Below, piece after piece: positions 15,376 to 23,864 of a DNA stretch of 37,540 nt. The stretch lies in NCBI GenBank assembly GCA_946186945.1, contig CAMHPC010000010.1:1-37540 (forward strand), in the 5' to 3' direction. This DNA is from an uncultured Prevotella sp. GTDB lineage: Bacteria > Bacteroidota > Bacteroidia > Bacteroidales > Bacteroidaceae. A program made the translations under genes and the position numbers. The notes under the pieces were generated by a model that did not search any database, was not told the DNA's origin, and worked only from the letters and a program-made list of their open reading frames with translations. Positions within the stretch are counted from its first letter, which is position 1. Each line of letters begins with the position of its first letter.

Positions 15376-15420
15376 TTGCAGATTATCGCGTAAATTTTGC
15401 GATAGTCTGCAATTCTTTTT
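15376..15420 (+). terminator. clpB terminator
   Basis: TTGCAGATTATCGC (15376-15389) pairs with GCGATAGTCTGCAA (15399-15412) over 14 bp, including one G-U pair. It leaves a 9-nt loop and is followed by TTCTTTTT. A T run (15372-15377) also precedes it on the other side as seen from the plus strand. It lies about 40 nt after the clpB stop and overlaps the -33 region of the next promoter. Confidence 0.85.
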
Positions 15421-15429
15421 CTATCTTTG
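15396..15429 (+). promoter_or_regulatory. Promoter of the recQ-PRTase/dprA module
   Basis: TATCTTTG at 15422-15429 is a perfect TAnnTTTG box. TTTG at 15396-15399, 22 nt upstream, is a possible -33 element and lies in the loop and 3' arm of the clpB terminator hairpin. The leader to the recQ ATG would be roughly 70 nt, longer than others here. Confidence 0.6.
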
Positions 15430-15450: not shown

Positions 15451-15570
15451 ATGATGAGAAGATGCACGGGACATTGCTATATTACATACAAAATCGGTTA
15501 TTTGCATTATGAACAGGGTTCAAGCAGAACAACAGTTAAAGAAAATATTCGGAATAGACCATTTCTATGA
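15451..15570 (+). CDS. Possible leader peptide overlapping the recQ-like start
   Basis: A 39-codon frame starts at ATG ATG directly after the Shine-Dalgarno-like GAGGAG (15445-15450). It runs past the recQ-like start codon (15509) in another frame and stops at 15568-15570. It begins MMRRCTGHCYITYKIGYLHY. If translated, it would compete with or couple to initiation of the helicase. The evidence is only the SD sequence, the position in the leader and the overlap; it may be chance. Confidence 0.25.
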   Translation: MMRRCTGHCYITYKIGYLHYEQGSSRTTVKENIRNRPFL

Positions 15571-17737
15571 TGAACAATGGAATGCTGTTTCTATGATTTT
15601 GACTGGCAAAAGGGTTTTAATGATAGAAAGAACAGGTTTTGGTAAATCCCTTTGCTATCAATTTCCCGCCTGCCTGTTTCCAGGTATGACCGTTGTCTTC
15701 TCTCCTCTGATAGCCCTCATGAGAGATCAAGTGAACAGCTTAATACAAAAGGGTATCAAGGCTGCATATATCAACAGCGAACAAAGCCATGAAGAAAACG
15801 ACAATGTGATAGAGCAAGCCATTTCCGGAAAAGTGAAAATTCTATACATTGCTCCGGAAAGGCAAGAGAACGAGCACTGGATTGAAGCTGTAAGACAAAT
15901 GAATTTGTCTATGATAGTAATTGATGAGGCGCATACCATCTCTACTTGGGGACATGATTTCAGGCCAGCCTTCCGCAGAATTATCAATTTAGTTCAGTTG
16001 CTTCCTGCTCACATGCCTGTTCTTGCTACCACAGCCACAGCAACAAAACGTGTGCAACACGATATAGAACAACAAATTGGCGGGAAACTGACAACTATTA
16101 GAGGATCACTCTTTAGAAGCAATTTCAGACTTCGCGTAATACGCGTAAAGAGCGAAGATGAAAAAATGATTTGGCTCGCAGAAAATATTAACAGAATGCA
16201 GGGTACAGGTATCATTTATACGGGTACACGACTTAATACTGAGGTGTATGCCAAATGGCTACAGTATGTGGGTATAGATGCCATTGACTACAATGCTGGG
16301 TATGATGCAGAAACGAGGAAAGATGTTGAAAAAGGTCTGATGGACAATCGCTGGAAATGCATTGTTTCTACCAATGCACTAGGGATGGGGGTAGACAAGC
16401 CTGATATCCGCTTTGTGATACACACACAGATGCCAGCCTCGCCTATACACTACTACCAGGAAATAGGCAGAGGTGGACGTGATGGATTACCCACAGAAAT
16501 AATACTATTTTACAACGACACCAAAGTAGGTGAAGAACAACTGGCTTACGACATATTATTGCCAAAATCATTTATAGATAATGCCAGACCTGCACAAGAG
16601 AAGTACACCAAGGTTGTAAATATGCTCCTCGATGAACCTCTTATGGAAAAGGAATTGATGAAAAAAGGTAACCTAAAACAGGGAGAAGTTCGTGTAATAA
16701 AATACGACTTGATTGATCAGGGTATAATCAAAGAAGTAAAATATGGAAGCGTAAAGAGATACGAATACCAATATGGCGCGAAACCATTCGACTACAAGTT
16801 ATTTGAAGAATTGAGGAAGGCTAAATTGGAGGATTTGAGAAGGATGGAGGAATATGTTTATACGAAGACTCCAAGAATGAAATACCTCTGCAATTTCCTT
16901 GACAGCAACGAGCAAATAGAGTATACGAACTGCGACAACACCAACCTAGCAAAGATAGATCTGACCAACCAAGATGCAGTACTGACAGAAAGGCTCAGAC
17001 AGTTTAGAGAGTCCTATTTTCCGAAACTTGAACTCTGTGAGTCGACTTACAGATATGCCAAGAGCCAGAACGGGGAGAAAGTGCGTCTGACAATAAAGAT
17101 TTCCTCACCCGACATCATAGATGTATATCGCGATAAGGAACTTGTCAACCGATACCACAATCACATTGACATGTCAGACTTTAGTGCCAACGAGGCTACC
17201 ACCTTAGAGGAAATAATGACACATCACAGACAAGAGAAATCACACATTACCGATGGTATAGCGGCATCTTACTATGGGGTATCTAATGTAGGAGCAGCCA
17301 TCAATCGCAGCAAATACGAGAATGGCGGCGATTTTCCAGACTTCCTGCTGCGCTTGACCCTAAAGGCATTTGGAAAGTGGTTTGGGAAGTACCATTTTGA
17401 CCTGGTCTTATATGTCCCTCCCACTCACTCAGGCAATCTGGTGAAAAATTTTGCTTCGAAGTTTTCTTCCGTCATAAAGACACCTATTTGTCACAGTTTG
17501 AAGAAGATAAGAGAAACAAGAGAACAAAAGGTGTTTCAAAACCGATATGGCAAACAAGATAACATAAAGGATGCATTTGACATAGACATCAACCTTAGCG
17601 GAAAGAATGTGATTGTAATTGATGACATCTACGATAGCGGTGAAACACTTAAAGAAATCGGCAGATTATTAACAAAAAAAGGAGCAAATTATATTGTTCC
17701 TGTAGTAATAGCAAAAACTGTAGGAGGCACGCAATAA
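15509..17737 (+). CDS. RecQ-like helicase fused to a C-terminal phosphoribosyltransferase domain
   Basis: This 742-residue protein begins with a RecQ-type SF2 helicase: motif I RTGFGKSLCYQ (41-51), DEAH (139-142), TATAT (174-178), NALGMGVDKPDIRFV (289-303) and motif VI QEIGRGGRDG (317-326). The usual RecQ four-Cys zinc region is reduced to Cys461 and Cys475. A less recognisable stretch (480-610) leads into a phosphoribosyltransferase fold with the PRPP loop VIVIDDIYDSGETL (701-714), as in ComF-type and ShosT-type PRTases. No HRDC domain is seen. The gene's TAA and the ATG of the dprA-like gene overlap as TAATG, implying translational coupling. It is AT-richer than clpB and topB, consistent with horizontal acquisition. 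The likely role is anti-phage defence or DNA processing, by analogy with ShosTA (PRTase plus DprA); that is inference. Confidence 0.85.
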   Translation: MNRVQAEQQLKKIFGIDHFYDEQWNAVSMILTGKRVLMIERTGFGKSLCYQFPACLFPGMTVVFSPLIALMRDQVNSLIQKGIKAAYINSEQSHEENDNVIEQAISGKVKILYIAPERQENEHWIEAVRQMNLSMIVIDEAHTISTWGHDFRPAFRRIINLVQLLPAHMPVLATTATATKRVQHDIEQQIGGKLTTIRGSLFRSNFRLRVIRVKSEDEKMIWLAENINRMQGTGIIYTGTRLNTEVYAKWLQYVGIDAIDYNAGYDAETRKDVEKGLMDNRWKCIVSTNALGMGVDKPDIRFVIHTQMPASPIHYYQEIGRGGRDGLPTEIILFYNDTKVGEEQLAYDILLPKSFIDNARPAQEKYTKVVNMLLDEPLMEKELMKKGNLKQGEVRVIKYDLIDQGIIKEVKYGSVKRYEYQYGAKPFDYKLFEELRKAKLEDLRRMEEYVYTKTPRMKYLCNFLDSNEQIEYTNCDNTNLAKIDLTNQDAVLTERLRQFRESYFPKLELCESTYRYAKSQNGEKVRLTIKISSPDIIDVYRDKELVNRYHNHIDMSDFSANEATTLEEIMTHHRQEKSHITDGIAASYYGVSNVGAAINRSKYENGGDFPDFLLRLTLKAFGKWFGKYHFDLVLYVPPTHSGNLVKNFASKFSSVIKTPICHSLKKIRETREQKVFQNRYGKQDNIKDAFDIDINLSGKNVIVIDDIYDSGETLKEIGRLLTKKGANYIVPVVIAKTVGGTQ

Positions 17738-18852
17738 TGAAACAAGAATTAACCTATTGGGTCACACTTGCCATGATTCCAAAGATGTGGACAAAACGTA
17801 AGAATGAGATTTATGTCAAGTGCTATTTGCATTCACCACGCATTTCTATTATTCAATTATTTGAAGAAGCTTCGCTGTGGGACGAACTGGGACTTGACTC
17901 CGATGAAAAACGACTCTTTTCTGAGGCTAAATCCCAACTCGCCAACAACTCATTTCTGGTTGAGGAACTATTGGCACAAGGATATAATATAATTCCGATA
18001 GACTCTGCCGATTTTCCCAGAGCACTAAAAGACAACTTAAAACAGGGTGCTCCTACCGTGATTTTCACAAAGGGAAATCTACAATTACTAAAGAAGGAAA
18101 GTGTTGCAATAGTTGGCTCTCGCTATGCCAATAACAATGCTCTGACCTTTACTGAAAACGTAGCACACAAAGAGGTCAGCAAAGGTAACATTATTGTCAG
18201 TGGCTTTGCAAAAGGTGTTGACCGACATGCTCTGGATGCTGCCATCAGAAATGGTGGTGAGAGTATTATCGTACTCCCACAAGGCATAACAACTTTTGGT
18301 ACAGGATTTAAGCAGTACTATAAACAGATATTACAGGGAAAAATCCTCGTACTCAGCACATTTCACCCTAAAGCCCCATGGAGTGTGGAACATGCCATGT
18401 CAAGAAATTCCATCATATATGCCCTGGGCAGAAGTATATACGTAGCCCAGAGCGACAGTAAGGGGGGCACATGGTCGGGAGTGATAGATGGGTTGAGGAA
18501 AGGAAGGGACATCTATATCAGAATACCAGAGAGTGGAGAAAAAACAGCAAATATGACTTTGATAGAAAAGGGAGCGAAGGCTGTCGATATGGAAGGTACC
18601 CCCACCATTATTGGTATCTCCTCAATTCCTAAGAAGGTGTCGAACGATGAGTATAAAGCCACAATCATCAAGTTACTGACCACAGAGCAGAGAACAAGTC
18701 AAGAAATCAAGTCAAAGATTAATGTGTCATGGTCTGATAACAAGATGAAGAAATTTCTAAGAGAGATGGAGTCTGTAGAAGAATTCAAAGAAAAGAAAAG
18801 AATTTTCTTCCGGTTAAAGATGGCTCATACGCCAACATTATTCGATAATTGA
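17737..18852 (+). CDS. DprA-like (SLOG/Rossmann) DNA-processing protein
   Basis: This 371-residue protein belongs to the DprA family of nucleotide- and single-strand-DNA-binding proteins. Motifs: AIVGSR (124-129), SGFAKGVDRHALDAA (155-169), the EHAMSRNSIIYALG segment (218-231) and SKGGTWSGV (241-249). A small winged-helix-like tail (about 303-360) follows, as in many DprA proteins. The N-terminal part (1-110) is only weakly DprA-like. It overlaps the stop of the RecQ-PRTase gene by one base, so the two are almost certainly made together. In ShosTA the DprA-like partner is the antitoxin; the same may hold here. It is probably not the housekeeping competence DprA, given the operon and the AT-rich codon use. 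Its stop is only 7 nt before topB. Confidence 0.85.
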   Translation: MKQELTYWVTLAMIPKMWTKRKNEIYVKCYLHSPRISIIQLFEEASLWDELGLDSDEKRLFSEAKSQLANNSFLVEELLAQGYNIIPIDSADFPRALKDNLKQGAPTVIFTKGNLQLLKKESVAIVGSRYANNNALTFTENVAHKEVSKGNIIVSGFAKGVDRHALDAAIRNGGESIIVLPQGITTFGTGFKQYYKQILQGKILVLSTFHPKAPWSVEHAMSRNSIIYALGRSIYVAQSDSKGGTWSGVIDGLRKGRDIYIRIPESGEKTANMTLIEKGAKAVDMEGTPTIIGISSIPKKVSNDEYKATIIKLLTTEQRTSQEIKSKINVSWSDNKMKKFLREMESVEEFKEKKRIFFRLKMAHTPTLFDN

Positions 18853-18859
18853 TGTAAAT

Positions 18860-20908
18860 ATGATAGTTTGCATAGCAGAGAAGCCCAGTGTGGCACGCGA
18901 CATAGCACGTATCATTGGTGCCAACAACGCACACCAGGGATATATGGAGGGCAACGGATATCAGGTGACATGGACCTTCGGCCACCTGTGCACGCTCAAA
19001 GAGCCACACGACTATACCGACGCGTGGCGCAAGTGGAACCTCACCTCATTGCCCATGATACCACCCCGCTTCGGCATAAAACTGATAGAGGACGAAGGAG
19101 TGAAGAAACAGTTTGCCGTGATAGAGAGGCTGATGCAACATGCCGATAGCATAGTGAACTGCGGCGATGCCGGCCAGGAGGGTGAACTGATACAACGGTG
19201 GGTGATGCAAAAGGCTGGTGCTCGCTGTCCGGTGCGGCGGCTGTGGATATCGTCGATGACCGACGAGGCCATACGCGAGGGTTTTCAGAACCTGCGCGAC
19301 GAACAGGACTATCAGCCGCTGTACATGGCAGGACTGAGTCGTGCCATAGGCGACTGGCTGCTGGGCATGAATGCCACACGCCTGTACACCCTGCGCTTCG
19401 GCCAGGGGCGGCAGGTGCTCTCCATAGGCAGGGTGCAGACCCCTACCCTCGCACTGATAGTAAACCGCCAGCGAGAGATAGAACAGTTCGTGCCCGAACC
19501 CTACTGGGTGCTTGCCACCAAATACCGCGGTGTGGTGTTCACCGCCACCAAGGGGCGCTTCACCAGCAAGGAAGAGGGCGAACAGGCATTTGCCACCATC
19601 GAGGGGAAGCCATTCACCGTGACCGACGTGCAGAAGAAAAACGGCACCGAGGCACCACCGCGACTCTACGACCTGACCACGCTGCAGGTGGACTGTAACA
19701 AGAAGTTCGGCATGAGTGCCGAACTGACCCTCAACACCATACAGACACTCTACGAACATAAGTTGACCACCTATCCGCGTGTAGACACCCAGTACCTGAG
19801 CGACGACATCTACCCTAAGTGCCCCGCCATACTACGCGGACTACGCGGATACGAGGCACTGACGGCTCCACTGATAGGTACCACGCTGCCCAAGAGCAAG
19901 AAAGTGTTCGACACGAGCAAGGTGACCGACCACCATGCCATCATACCCACGGGAGTGGCGGCAGTGGGACTGACCGATATGGAGAAGCATGTGTACGACC
20001 TGGTGACGCGCCGCTTCATCAGCGTATTCTATCCACCCTGCAAATACGCCACTACCACGGTGATGGGACGTGTGGAGAGCGTAGACTTCAAAGTGAGCGG
20101 CAAGGAGATACTCGACCCAGGATGGAGACGCATATACGAGAAGGATGCTGCCGACAGCCGTGAGGAGAAGAACGAGGAGGAGCGCACCCTGCCACCCTTC
20201 ACCAAGGGCGAGAGCGGACCTCACGAACCCACACTGACCGAGAAGCAGACCACCCCACCGAAATACTACACCGAGGCCACCCTGCTGCAAGCCATGGAGA
20301 CAGCAGGCAAGTTTGTGGACGACGAGGAACTGAGGGCTGCCATGAAGGAAAACGGCATAGGACGCCCGTCATCGCGGGCAGGGATAATAGAGACTCTCTT
20401 CAAACGCCACTACATAAGGCGTGAACGCAAGAACCTGGTCGCCACTGTCACAGGCATAGAACTGATAGACCTGATACGCGAGGACCTGTTGAAGAGTTGC
20501 GAACTGACTGGTATCTGGGAGAAGAAGTTGCGCGAGATAGAACGCCGCGAATACGATGCTGGGCAGTTCATAGAAGAACTGAAGCAGCAGGTACATGGCA
20601 TAGTGCAACAAGTAATGACCGACCCCACCAACCGTCGCATCACCATAGTGGACGAGAAGGAAGAGAAAAAGAAAAAAACTGCGAAGAGCGGCGTCAAAAA
20701 GGGCACCGCTAAGAAGGGTGCCTCAGCACCTGTTTCTGCACCAGCGCCAACACCAGCCGCGCCCACCAGCTCTACCGCGCCCCATGCTGACGACAGCATA
20801 ATAGGCACCGTATGTCCCAAGTGCGGCAAGGGTATAATAATAAAAGGTCGCACTGCTTACGGCTGCAGCGACTACAAGAACTGCGACTACCGCGTGAATT
20901 TTGGGTAG
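18860..20908 (+). CDS. topB: DNA topoisomerase III (type IA)
   Basis: This 682-residue enzyme passes single DNA strands and decatenates. TOPRIM residues are visible in [12 protein letters not shown] (Glu7) and [14 protein letters not shown] (Asp103, Glu107). The active-site Tyr is Tyr305 in [15 protein letters not shown]. After the core comes a Lys/Ala/Pro-rich low-complexity linker (about 595-650) and a C-terminal four-Cys zinc finger (CPKCG, then GCSDYKNC). Base composition and codon use match clpB and other core genes, unlike the AT-richer genes before and after it. The ATG lies 7 nt after the dprA-like stop, so it is probably read through from the recQ-PRTase promoter unless a promoter hides inside dprA. 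TopB and RecQ cooperate in recombination in other bacteria, so the pairing could also be functional. Confidence 0.92.
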
Positions 20909-20989
20909 TGCCATTAAAAAACGCCCCAATTCGAGAAAAATTGTTTTCTTTTTTATATCGACAGTATTACAATTTCCCATTTTTTTATC

Positions 20990-20997
20990 TAAATTTG
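20990..20997 (+). promoter_or_regulatory. -7 box of the restriction-modification genes
   Basis: TAAATTTG is a perfect TAnnTTTG box, 24 nt before the methylase ATG. This short leader supports the start at 21022 and excludes the longer frame that reaches back into topB. No clear -33 TTTG lies at the expected distance. Confidence 0.6.
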
Positions 20998-21021
20998 CGG
21001 GATAAAGTAAAGACACGAACA

Positions 21022-22323
21022 ATGGCAACGACAGAAGTTAAAATATCAGAACTGCCTGAAGAGTTGACAGAAGACGGACTGAAGATATATGGCCCAGCAT
21101 CCTACGAGACGCAGGTTGCCATATTGAGTCAATACCTTCATACCCTTAAAGACAAGCACGACATAGTATCAGGCGAGAAGCGTTATGAGATTCTAGGAGC
21201 GATACGAGATTTCATTGAGTACAAACACCAACAGGACCGGAAGAATCCTATGTGGAAAGATATTAGCGATGAAGTCGTATGGATGGCAGCAGAAAGTCCG
21301 TTAGAGAATGAGCTCTTTTCTGACTTTTTCAAGGTTCCGTTCCCTGCCCCTGAAAATCCCAAGTTTACTTTCATTGATTTGTTTGCAGGCATGGGCGGTT
21401 TCCGCCTGGCCATGCAGGCACAAGGAGGTAAATGTGTCTTCTCATCTGAATGGAATGCCTACTCACAGAAGACGTATTTCTCAAACTTTGGCGACATGCC
21501 TTTTGGCGACATAACCAAAGAAGTCACCAAATCGTATATCCCTGAGAAGTTCGATATTCTTTGTGCAGGATTCCCTTGCCAACCATTCTCTATAGCTGGC
21601 GTTTCCAAAAAGAAAAGTCTTGGACGTGAGACTGGCTTCAAGGACAAGACTCAAGGAACACTTTTCTTTGACGTTGCAGATATTATTAGTCGCCATCGTC
21701 CCAAAGCATTCTTCTTGGAGAATGTGAAGAACCTGACTTCACACGATAAGGGAAATACCTTCCGTGTCATATATAACACGCTCAAGGAATTGCGTTATTC
21801 TGTACACTATCTTGTTATGGACGGTCAAACATACGTACCACAACATCGTGAAAGAATCATGATTGTTGGTTTTGACGAAGATGTCTATGGCGGCAAGGAA
21901 TCATTCACGTTCCCTGAGCAGCATGAAGCTACACGTAGCATCAAGGAAATCCTCGACCCCGAAATTGACCCCAAATACACTCTAAGCGACAAATTGTGGG
22001 CATACCTGCAAAACTACGCTGAAAAGCATCGCGCAAAGGGTAATGGTTTTGGTTACGGGCTTGTTGACCTCAATGGCATCACCAGGACTCTTAGTGCCCG
22101 CTACTACAAGGATGGTTCGGAGATACTGATTCCTCAAGGCGAAGGTAAGAATCCACGTCGTCTTTCTCCACGTGAATGCGCACGTCTTATGGGTTATCCC
22201 GACAAATATAGGATTGATCGCGTATCAGATGTTCAGGCTTACAAGCAGTGTGGTAACTCTGTAATTGTACCCTTGATTACTGCAGTTTCAGAACAAATAA
22301 TTAAAACCCTCCAAAACGTATAA
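21022..22323 (+). CDS. Type II DNA cytosine-5 methyltransferase (Dcm/M.EcoRII-like)
   Basis: This 433-residue methylase should transfer a methyl group from SAM to C5 of cytosine in the site cut by the next gene, predicted CCWGG. The ten-motif order is clear: motif [12 protein letters not shown] (117-127), [10 protein letters not shown] with catalytic Cys186, VI ENV (233-235), VIII QHRERI (274-279), [16 protein letters not shown] (380-393) and X QCGNSV (409-414). The N-terminal extension of about 110 residues is typical of Dcm/M.EcoRII. The target-recognition region between VIII and IX is about 100 residues. It starts 5 nt before the endonuclease gene's partner arrangement (methylase first, endonuclease second). 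The sequence is AT-richer than topB, as expected for a mobile R-M system. Site specificity is inferred from the partner. Confidence 0.93.
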
Positions 22324-22328
22324 TCGTT

Positions 22329-23522
22329 ATGAGTGAAATATTGAATTCCGCCATTAAGAGCGTTGGCAATTCACAAGGAGCTTTTTGTCGGTTTATCACG
22401 GCCAATGACACCCATGCCAGCGGTTCGCATCAAGCCGGGTTCCTGATGCCTATTGCTGCCTACCAGCTTATATTCAACAAACATCGTATAAGGGGTGTGA
22501 ATGAAGACAAGTGGGTCACTGTCAGATGGCAAGACGACAGAACAACAAACAACCGTATGATATACTACGGCAAGGCGAAGAATGAACTGCGCATTACTCG
22601 CTTTGGTGAGAAGTTCCCATTCTTTGAGGAAGACCACGTTGGCGACTTACTCATCATAGCAAAGCATACCGACGAAGATTATTCTGGTTATGTCTTGAGT
22701 ACCGAGGAAGATATTGAGACCTTCTTGGCGTACTTCAATCTCTCGCCCGATAAGACGAATCAGTTGATTGAGGTTAATGAAATGGAGAAACCAAATGCAA
22801 AAATTGCACACCTGCTCAACGAATTCGCTTCAAGGTTTACTGATTTCCCTGAGACTAAAATCATGTCAGAGGGTGCAAGGGAGTGCTTTAACAAAGCTTA
22901 TCGAATCGTAATAGATGACATTATTCGAAAACCAGACGACATAATCATGAACTGGTACGAAACCGAGGAAAGGCTATTCAAGTGCATGGAGGAACAGATT
23001 TATTCATCAATGATTTCACAACCTTTCGGCTCCGTAGAGCATTTTGCCGAGATAGCCAATAAGGTTCTGAACCGTCGCAAGTCTCGAGCAGGTAAGTCAT
23101 TGGAACATCACCTTGCCAACATTTTTCGCACAAACGATATTGTTTTTGAAGAGCAGGCTGTGACGGAGAACAACAACAAGCCCGATTTTCTTTTCCCCAA
23201 CAGTGAATGCTATCACAACATCATATTCCCAACCGAAAACCTGACGATGCTTGGCGTCAAAACTTCATGTAAAGACCGCTGGCGTCAGGTGCTCAACGAA
23301 GCTGAACGTATCAAAAACAAACATCTGTTTACCCTCCAGCCAGGTATTTCCAAGAATCAGTTGAAAGAGATGAAAGATGCAAACCTGACTCTTGTCGTCC
23401 CACACAAGAACATTTGCACCTTCCCTGAGGACTATCAAGATTTTCTTTTTGATTTATCAAGTTTCATTGGTTTGGTTCGCAAAAAGCAGGAAACACTCCC
23501 TAAATACTATTTACTTAATTGA
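22329..23522 (+). CDS. EcoRII-type restriction endonuclease (type IIE)
   Basis: This 397-residue endonuclease is close in length to EcoRII (about 404). The N-terminal half (about 1-170) has the EcoRII effector-DNA-binding layout. The C-terminal catalytic half contains RAGKSLEHHLANIF (253-266), KPDFLFP (284-290) and LGVKTSCKDRWRQVL (308-322), which supply the acidic, Lys and Arg residues of the PD-(D/E)xK centre known from EcoRII. EcoRII cleaves before CCWGG and needs a second site for activation, so the same is predicted. The ATG lies 5 nt after the methylase stop. CCAGG and CCTGG are common in the surrounding genes, so the host must be protected by the methylase if the enzyme is active. No disruption is seen. 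Confidence 0.9.
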   Translation: MSEILNSAIKSVGNSQGAFCRFITANDTHASGSHQAGFLMPIAAYQLIFNKHRIRGVNEDKWVTVRWQDDRTTNNRMIYYGKAKNELRITRFGEKFPFFEEDHVGDLLIIAKHTDEDYSGYVLSTEEDIETFLAYFNLSPDKTNQLIEVNEMEKPNAKIAHLLNEFASRFTDFPETKIMSEGARECFNKAYRIVIDDIIRKPDDIIMNWYETEERLFKCMEEQIYSSMISQPFGSVEHFAEIANKVLNRRKSRAGKSLEHHLANIFRTNDIVFEEQAVTENNNKPDFLFPNSECYHNIIFPTENLTMLGVKTSCKDRWRQVLNEAERIKNKHLFTLQPGISKNQLKEMKDANLTLVVPHKNICTFPEDYQDFLFDLSSFIGLVRKKQETLPKYYLLN

Positions 23523-23567
23523 ACAAAAACTGTTTTTAATTAATTAACTAAAGTTTCGCAAGTTCAG

Positions 23568-23864
23568 GTGCTCCCCAAGATTCAAAATGGTGCATATTGC
23601 TTATTCCGTGCAGGAGGTAGCGTGCATCGTGGTGACATTGTCATAGCTGGCATTCATGACTATGACGAAGACTATAACGGCAGGTTCACTATTAAAGAGT
23701 TCAGGCAAGAGTTCATTATGAACGAAGACGGAGTAAGAGAACGCGAATCGGTAACACTAAAACCATTAAACGACAATGGGAATTATCCCACTTTTGAACT
23801 TGATGGTGAAAGTGGAGAAGGTTTTGGCGTGTTCGGTGTGTTAGTTGATATAATAGAATTGTAA
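23568..23864 (+). pseudogene. C-terminal stump of an S24 (LexA/UmuD-like) peptidase
   Basis: The 98-residue frame resembles the second half of an S24 peptidase domain: PKIQNGAYCLFRAGG, GDIVIAG, and FTIKEFRQEF with the Lys expected in the Ser-Lys dyad. The part with the catalytic Ser is missing, and the frame opens only 24 nt further upstream at a TAA. There is no ATG at its head, only a GTG. It lies 45 nt after the endonuclease gene. It is most likely the remnant of a larger gene cut when the R-M module was inserted or reshaped. A short functional protein is less likely but possible. Confidence 0.55.

Follow-up and report, generated by a model that had tools for sequence, protein, structure and literature searches.

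A helicase–phosphoribosyltransferase gene and its DprA-like partner in an uncultured Prevotella sp., most likely a module of the RqlHI/PsyrTA type

Described systems of helicase–phosphoribosyltransferase and DprA-like protein

The RqlHI system of Escherichia coli pairs a RecQ helicase that continues into a phosphoribosyltransferase (PRTase) domain, RqlH, with a DprA-like protein, RqlI, whose gene overlaps that of the helicase upstream (PMC4670107). The same report terms PsyrT, of the PsyrTA system of Pseudomonas syringae, an orthologue of RqlH; the original work on PsyrTA (Sberro 2013) is taken here as cited in PMC8790059 and PMC4670107. We describe a two-gene module of this architecture at positions 15,509–18,852, forward strand, of contig CAMHPC010000010.1 (assembly GCA_946186945.1) from an uncultured Prevotella sp. 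The window is the whole stretch of DNA analysed, positions 1–37,540 of that contig (37,540 nucleotides), and all features below lie on its forward strand. An original prediction, made from the letters of the window, had read the module as a possible new ShosTA-like defence system. Comparison of profiles, domains and gene order indicates that it is most likely a RqlHI/PsyrTA-type module, an already described kind and not a new system.

According to PMC4670107, cells with RqlH but no RqlI stop growing, induce the SOS response and form filaments, and RqlI, which binds to RqlH, relieves this toxicity. In that work mutants of the PRTase residue D663 largely lose toxicity and the PRTase domain alone is insufficient for it; with the helicase mutations K49A and D148A cultures grow to a normal density, yet show more SOS induction, more filamentation and fewer viable cells. 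PsyrT is toxic without PsyrA in P. syringae, as cited in the same paper. In ShosTA the PRTase is reported to disturb purine metabolism, which leads to DNA duplications, filamentation and death, with a phage T7 protein as trigger (PMC12593503). A link between DprA antitoxins and PRTase effectors was put forward as a hypothesis in PMC9122126, and a 2017 survey tied the helicase–PRTase fusion to DprA and invasive DNA (PMC5512222). Both the survey and PMC4670107 draw a parallel to ComFA, ComFC and DprA of natural transformation, which likewise comprise a helicase, a ComF-type PRTase and DprA.

Composition and kinship of the Prevotella pair

The first gene (15,509–17,737) encodes 742 amino acids with a RecQ-family helicase followed by a C-terminal PRTase, and the second (17,737–18,852) a DprA-like protein of 371 amino acids. 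They are joined by TAATG (17,735–17,739), where the stop of the first and the start of the second have one base in common; the coordinates, strands and coupling given by the original prediction are exact. The PADLOC model of PsyrT matches the first protein along its length (823.6 bits, E = 3.1e-248; residues 2–740 against model positions 2–687 of 689). PsyrA is the best model for the second (248.8 bits, 2.4e-74) and scores above ShosA (116.6 bits, 3.2e-34). At the level of these PsyrTA models (PDLC03928 and PDLC03927) no difference was found, the likeness being to the PADLOC models and not to the P. syringae proteins themselves. Pfam assigns DEAD (3.5e-25), Helicase_C (5.2e-19) and Pribosyltran (1.8e-7, residues 649–729) to the first protein and DNA_processg_A (4.1e-41) to the second, in agreement with the predicted placement of the PRTase at the C-terminus of the helicase chain and of the DprA-like protein after it.

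Within the helicase part, the first RecA-like domain (residues 22–183; 15,572–16,057; Pfam DEAD) carries the Walker A lysine K46 and the DEAH motif at residues 139–142, and the second (residues 219–326; 16,163–16,486) corresponds to Helicase_C. RecQ models match residues 7–340, and structure matches to RecQ-family proteins cover residues 1–484 of the AlphaFold2 model (mean predicted local distance difference test score, pLDDT, 86.7); in searches with the whole model the matches listed were helicases. The equivalog of housekeeping RecQ, TIGR01389, scores 362.8 bits over residues 7–340 only, well under its cut-off of 640.2. The predicted 'full RecQ-like helicase' is right as to family, but what is present is a RecQ core and not a full RecQ. 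In the alignment, by eye, the RecQ-type zinc site (window residues 454–486) appears intact in a few relatives (L120, L121, L128 and L131 among them), and two of its cysteines are left in the lineage of the window.

The PRTase domain (residues 577–742; 17,237–17,734) is recognized by Pfam Pribosyltran and by GntX and ComF, the best PRTase-family models for it, and on these matches is classed as ComF-like. Its phosphoribosyl pyrophosphate (PRPP) loop reads VIVIDDIYDSGET and contains D705, D706, D709 and S710. These four residues, together with K46, D139, E140, A141 and H142 of the helicase, are invariant in all 47 aligned homologues (the window protein, 45 of the 60 relative loci introduced below, and locus L085). 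Between the RecQ part and the PRTase lies a lineage-specific insert (residues 509–576; 17,033–17,236), delimited by alignment and predicted to form a small beta-sheet with strands at residues 512–550 of the model. The region exceeds 50 residues in 16 of the 47 homologues, whereas the other 31 have only 3 or 4 residues there. No credible relative of the insert was found in the PDB; the best match, to a calcineurin entry (3.1e-5), contained no stretch that passed by itself and was taken as chance. The copy is one of a large group, since a search with residues 490–742 retrieved 2,279 proteins at E ≤ 0.001 (listing limited to the best 120). One relative from Dehalococcoidia (L117:7995-10586) has a C-terminal extension past the PRTase that looks HRDC-like by eye.

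The model of the DprA-like protein (pLDDT 92.2) has structure matches that include DprA and ShosA, with the solved ShosA 8zva among the top matches (E 8.5e-17). Profile and structure both support a DprA-like antitoxin of the ShosA fold, and PsyrA fits better. We rejected the candidate role of a LOG-type phosphoribohydrolase reversing the PRTase reaction. The catalytic glutamate of LOG belongs to a PGGxGTxxE motif, and where it would fall, as judged by eye in an alignment of 35 of the 52 partner genes, the protein has an invariant G248 in a conserved GGTW stretch; the fold match to LOG is weak only. The window genome also encodes a separate DprA and a separate PRTase open reading frame (ORF) of 238 amino acids, so the two-gene module is additional to the genome's own DprA and PRTase. 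By the same genes it differs from the natural-transformation set, as does its RecQ-type helicase in being fused to the PRTase.

Like RqlHI, the module has a RecQ helicase followed by a PRTase, with the helicase gene upstream and a DprA-like gene overlapping it. The form in E. coli CFT073 (698 amino acids, with DIVD at 663, like published RqlH, for which PMC4670107 gives 698 amino acids from strain F11) shares 29% identity with the window protein across residues 19–737, and the figure for the two DprA-like partners is 32% over 217 residues. This comparison places K46, D139 and D706 of the window opposite RqlH K49, D148 and D663. The E. coli form is without the 68-residue region 509–576, and RqlI is longer than the 371 residues of the window protein, at 431 as annotated in CFT073 and 400 in PMC4670107. 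Because PsyrT and PsyrA are the best profiles, the domain order is the same, the DprA-like gene overlaps and the active-site residues are kept, the pair is assigned by sequence comparison to RqlHI/PsyrTA on architecture, gene order and active sites. ShosTA resembles it in combining a PRTase toxin with a DprA-like antitoxin, but ShosT (a model of 237 positions) is a PRTase protein of its own, with no helicase attached, whereas the first protein of the window is no stand-alone PRTase and matches ShosT over residues 685–738 only (3.4e-5). The ShosT model is moreover not specific, because of 149 genomes of the order 143 contain a match to it, the matches listed being mostly to ORFs of ordinary stand-alone PRTase size (about 215–290 amino acids). 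The kind has been known since 2013–2015; what is specific to the window copy is its divergent lineage and the insert.

Constancy, distribution and surroundings of the pair

Close relatives of the first protein were found at 60 loci with a single-protein query of one genome per species (~85,000 species). They are mostly from Bacteroidota, and also from Fibrobacterota, Ignavibacteria, Desulfobulbus, Dehalococcoidia, Cloacimonadota and others (according to record titles; many are metagenome-assembled genomes). Setting aside three loci without a usable helicase ORF and four that end at a contig edge, 53 have enough downstream sequence, and a DprA-like gene lies directly 3′ of the helicase–PRTase gene, within 171 bases, in 52 of them. 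Split copies at three loci (L135, L137 and L140) are part of this count and were left out of the helicase–PRTase alignment. In 29 of the 52 pairs the genes overlap by four bases, counted from the longest ORF. Since the order is kept in all but one of these relatives, the arrangement is more than chance. The original prediction had named a fusion without a DprA partner as the finding that would speak against it, and these loci point the other way.

Among the annotated plasmid copies (two more are unannotated), those in E. coli, Acinetobacter and Nostoc have a DprA-like gene, and a Sinorhizobium plasmid copy is followed by DprA-like sequence in two pieces with no annotated gene. Damaged copies occur in E. 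coli: in one locus (L225) the helicase–PRTase gene is annotated as frameshifted and adjoins an intact DprA-like gene, in another (L227) it is truncated and no DprA-like gene is annotated in the locus, and in a third record (H114) it is split by an insertion element, the record listing also naming a DprA gene.

Within the genus the pair is patchy. No fused helicase–PRTase was found in a first draw of 35 same-genus genomes, and a PsyrA-like match at 1e-20 was present in 5 of 298 other same-genus genomes, a draw that includes genomes of the first. Both genes occur in 4 of the 298; in three the matches span the whole helicase–PRTase beside its partner, and in G226 the gene is cut by the contig end, with the last 62 residues matching. 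Genome G257 has a weak DprA-like match only, with no helicase–PRTase in the 17 kb fetched. Carriers are draft genomes, and that of the window is 89.6% complete. The fused protein is also present in two genomes from other families of the order (G042 and G051). In E. coli a stricter search found one form in 53 of 5,426 genomes, all copies at least 99% identical; a permissive search gave 1,651 of 5,426 genomes, with 1,598 of 1,652 records at 60–80% identity. Among 50,697 phage records there was no match over 80% of the helicase–PRTase protein.

The module likely has its own transcript, given a hairpin 3′ of clpB (15,376–15,412; stem of 15 bp, predicted −22.3 kcal/mol), a likely terminator, and a predicted promoter upstream of the first gene. 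The latter, TATCTTTG at 15,422–15,429, resembles the Bacteroidetes −7 element (consensus TAnnTTTG). The helicase–PRTase and DprA-like genes have 40.6% and 40.9% GC against 56.2% in clpB and 56.4% in topB on either side, which bears out the AT-richness that had been remarked on. topB (topoisomerase III; 18,860–20,908) begins 7 bases past the stop of the DprA-like gene; its best matches among relatives of the same genus have 70–82% identity to it. Topoisomerase III is a known partner of RecQ, and topB may be co-transcribed with the RecQ-type helicase gene. In 20 relatives (19 of the same genus, 1 of the same order) clpB was not found within ~16 kb around topB, and no clean insertion site was shown. 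The restriction-modification (R-M) system said to lie beside the module is present as an EcoRII-type system, with a dcm-type methylase (20,812–22,323) and an endonuclease (22,329–23,522), but it stands ~2 kb downstream, beyond the high-GC topB. Positions 20,812–23,864 form an AT-rich R-M island (43–44% GC), which includes a small S24-peptidase-like ORF (23,568–23,864) 3′ of the endonuclease gene. Searches at 1e-15 for EcoRII, dcm, topB and clpB in the DNA of 67 other loci (L085–L146 and L206–L210, many with short flanks) recovered none, save a 26%-identical topoisomerase-like match in L098, and a conserved link of the module to topB or R-M was rejected on these grounds.

Elsewhere the surroundings vary. 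The E. coli form of 53 genomes sits between hsdS and hsdR of a type I R-M system in all four places read, copies whose near identity makes a single event likely, and the Acinetobacter plasmid copy lies between pglX and pglZ of a bacteriophage exclusion (BREX) operon. Of six places read for the E. coli form at 60–80% identity, five are flanked by gntU and yhgN and have no adjoining defence gene; the sixth starts past gntU and is cut by an insertion. With PADLOC at 1e-10, 80 ORFs flanking 50 of the 52 pairs matched 210 models, and 79 ORFs next to topB in the 20 relatives matched 4, which is a poor control, as the tally is of models and not proteins, one protein can match many models, and taxa and ORFs per locus differ. 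When 20 of the 80 neighbour ORFs were scanned singly, three gave clear defence matches (L089, L127 and L136) and one a partial match (L133); the tally contains an AbiEii-like match besides, and the gene 3′ of the L089 pair is PglX-like or type IIG-like. The most frequent families of the 80 ORFs are ordinary (among the first 25 of 124 families). Defence genes nearby, which the original prediction would have us look for, turn up as scattered matches and as R-M or BREX in some copies, and not beside the gntU–yhgN form in five places; its argument from the adjoining R-M system is weak.

Predicted function and competing explanations

We consider it probable, from the sequence and by analogy with the described systems, that the module works as a toxin–antitoxin pair; without restraint by the DprA-like protein, the PRTase is predicted to upset nucleotide pools or damage DNA. 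The toxin–antitoxin logic of the original prediction fares well by this analogy. Toxicity, antitoxin activity, interaction and distribution are published for the same architecture in RqlHI (PMC4670107). On the RqlHI pattern, the free helicase–PRTase would be genotoxic through its PRTase, the helicase motor would help to hold the PRTase in check, and the DprA-like protein would bind the helicase–PRTase directly and restrain its toxicity. On the ShosTA pattern, the PRTase may alter the purine nucleotide pool, with DNA damage, filamentation and death as the outcome. We propose that the pair surveys unusual or single-stranded DNA through its RecQ core and its DprA-like protein, and that phage replication or host shut-off could disturb the complex and free the PRTase, as an abortive-infection response. 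PADLOC lists PsyrTA as a defence system, as does DefenseFinder (PMC12278908), and in a P. aeruginosa panel in which PsyrTA was labelled abortive infection, 81.8% of 11 PsyrTA-bearing strains were phage-resistant, a correlation (PMC10855318).

Several observations weigh against this interpretation. The module has only about 30% identity with the E. coli pair for which tests are published, and the defence neighbourhood is weak and inconsistent. The DprA-like partner was found at 1e-20 in none of 130 same-genus genomes that are at least 90% complete and no more than 5% contaminated. Nor is the partner always needed, because L129 has no DprA-like gene within 7.8 kb of its helicase–PRTase, L085, from the same order as the window, has none within its locus, and a DprA neighbour is missing from the annotation of one archaeal as well as two actinobacterial plasmid copies. 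The helicase–PRTase genes of L085 and L129 are complete and keep all active-site residues. The actinobacterial copies agree with the pattern reported in PMC4670107, by which Gram-positives nearly always carry RqlH alone. Finally, in the experiments on PsyrTA of strain NILS69 reported in PMC12409345, deletion left infection by 10 phages unchanged, and when the system was cloned in E. coli K-12, protection against 15 phages was undetectable and a growth defect was seen. These phage tests take a little weight from this interpretation and lend it to DNA maintenance.

Such a maintenance pair would have no immune role; the two proteins would act jointly in processing DNA that is stalled or damaged, and toxicity would merely reflect that one half is missing. 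We regard this as possible though unlikely. Russell and Mulvey suggest that the two proteins cooperate on DNA (PMC4670107), and the copies without a partner, the absence of phage protection from PsyrTA by deletion or cloning (PMC12409345), and the common E. coli form at gntU–yhgN, with no adjoining defence gene in five of six places (one of the five with a frameshifted helicase gene), are in keeping with it. A patchy presence in the genus and a deviant base composition are unlike a core repair gene, however, the window genome has a separate DprA, and the double deletion in E. coli had no detected fitness cost as reported in PMC4670107.

A variant in which the toxin is targeted by its motor appears doubtful. 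Brought by the helicase to unwound DNA, the PRTase would act at the fork, on bases or nucleotides there, while the DprA-like protein would be an on-site brake reading single-stranded DNA. If this were true, the target would be set by DNA structure and not by the free nucleotide pool.

It is very unlikely that the pair is instead a restriction guard, riding in R-M or BREX operons and killing the cell when restriction is blocked or failing. The EcoRII-type system 2 kb from the window pair, the four hsdS–hsdR places in E. coli, the pglX–pglZ copy of Acinetobacter and the PglX-like or type IIG-like gene after the L089 pair fit such a role. Yet the DNA of the 67 other loci yielded neither EcoRII nor dcm, the gntU–yhgN form has no adjoining R-M in the five places read, the commonest adjacent families are ordinary among the first 25 of 124, and the hsd copies of E. 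coli likely go back to one event; a guard role as a general rule is unsupported. That the module is a new ShosTA-like defence system with the helicase as sensor is most improbable, for although the DprA-like partner and the matches to ShosA (3.2e-34) and ShosT testify to kinship, PsyrT and PsyrA match far better and the architecture and toxin–antitoxin behaviour are already published (PMC4670107).

The original interpretation as a whole is thus partly supported, and the toxin–antitoxin pair of RqlHI/PsyrTA type stays our preferred explanation. For this family the window copy opens no new class; it offers an independent system, at about 30% identity to the E. coli form, for testing the three residues mutated there, and it carries an insert absent from that form.

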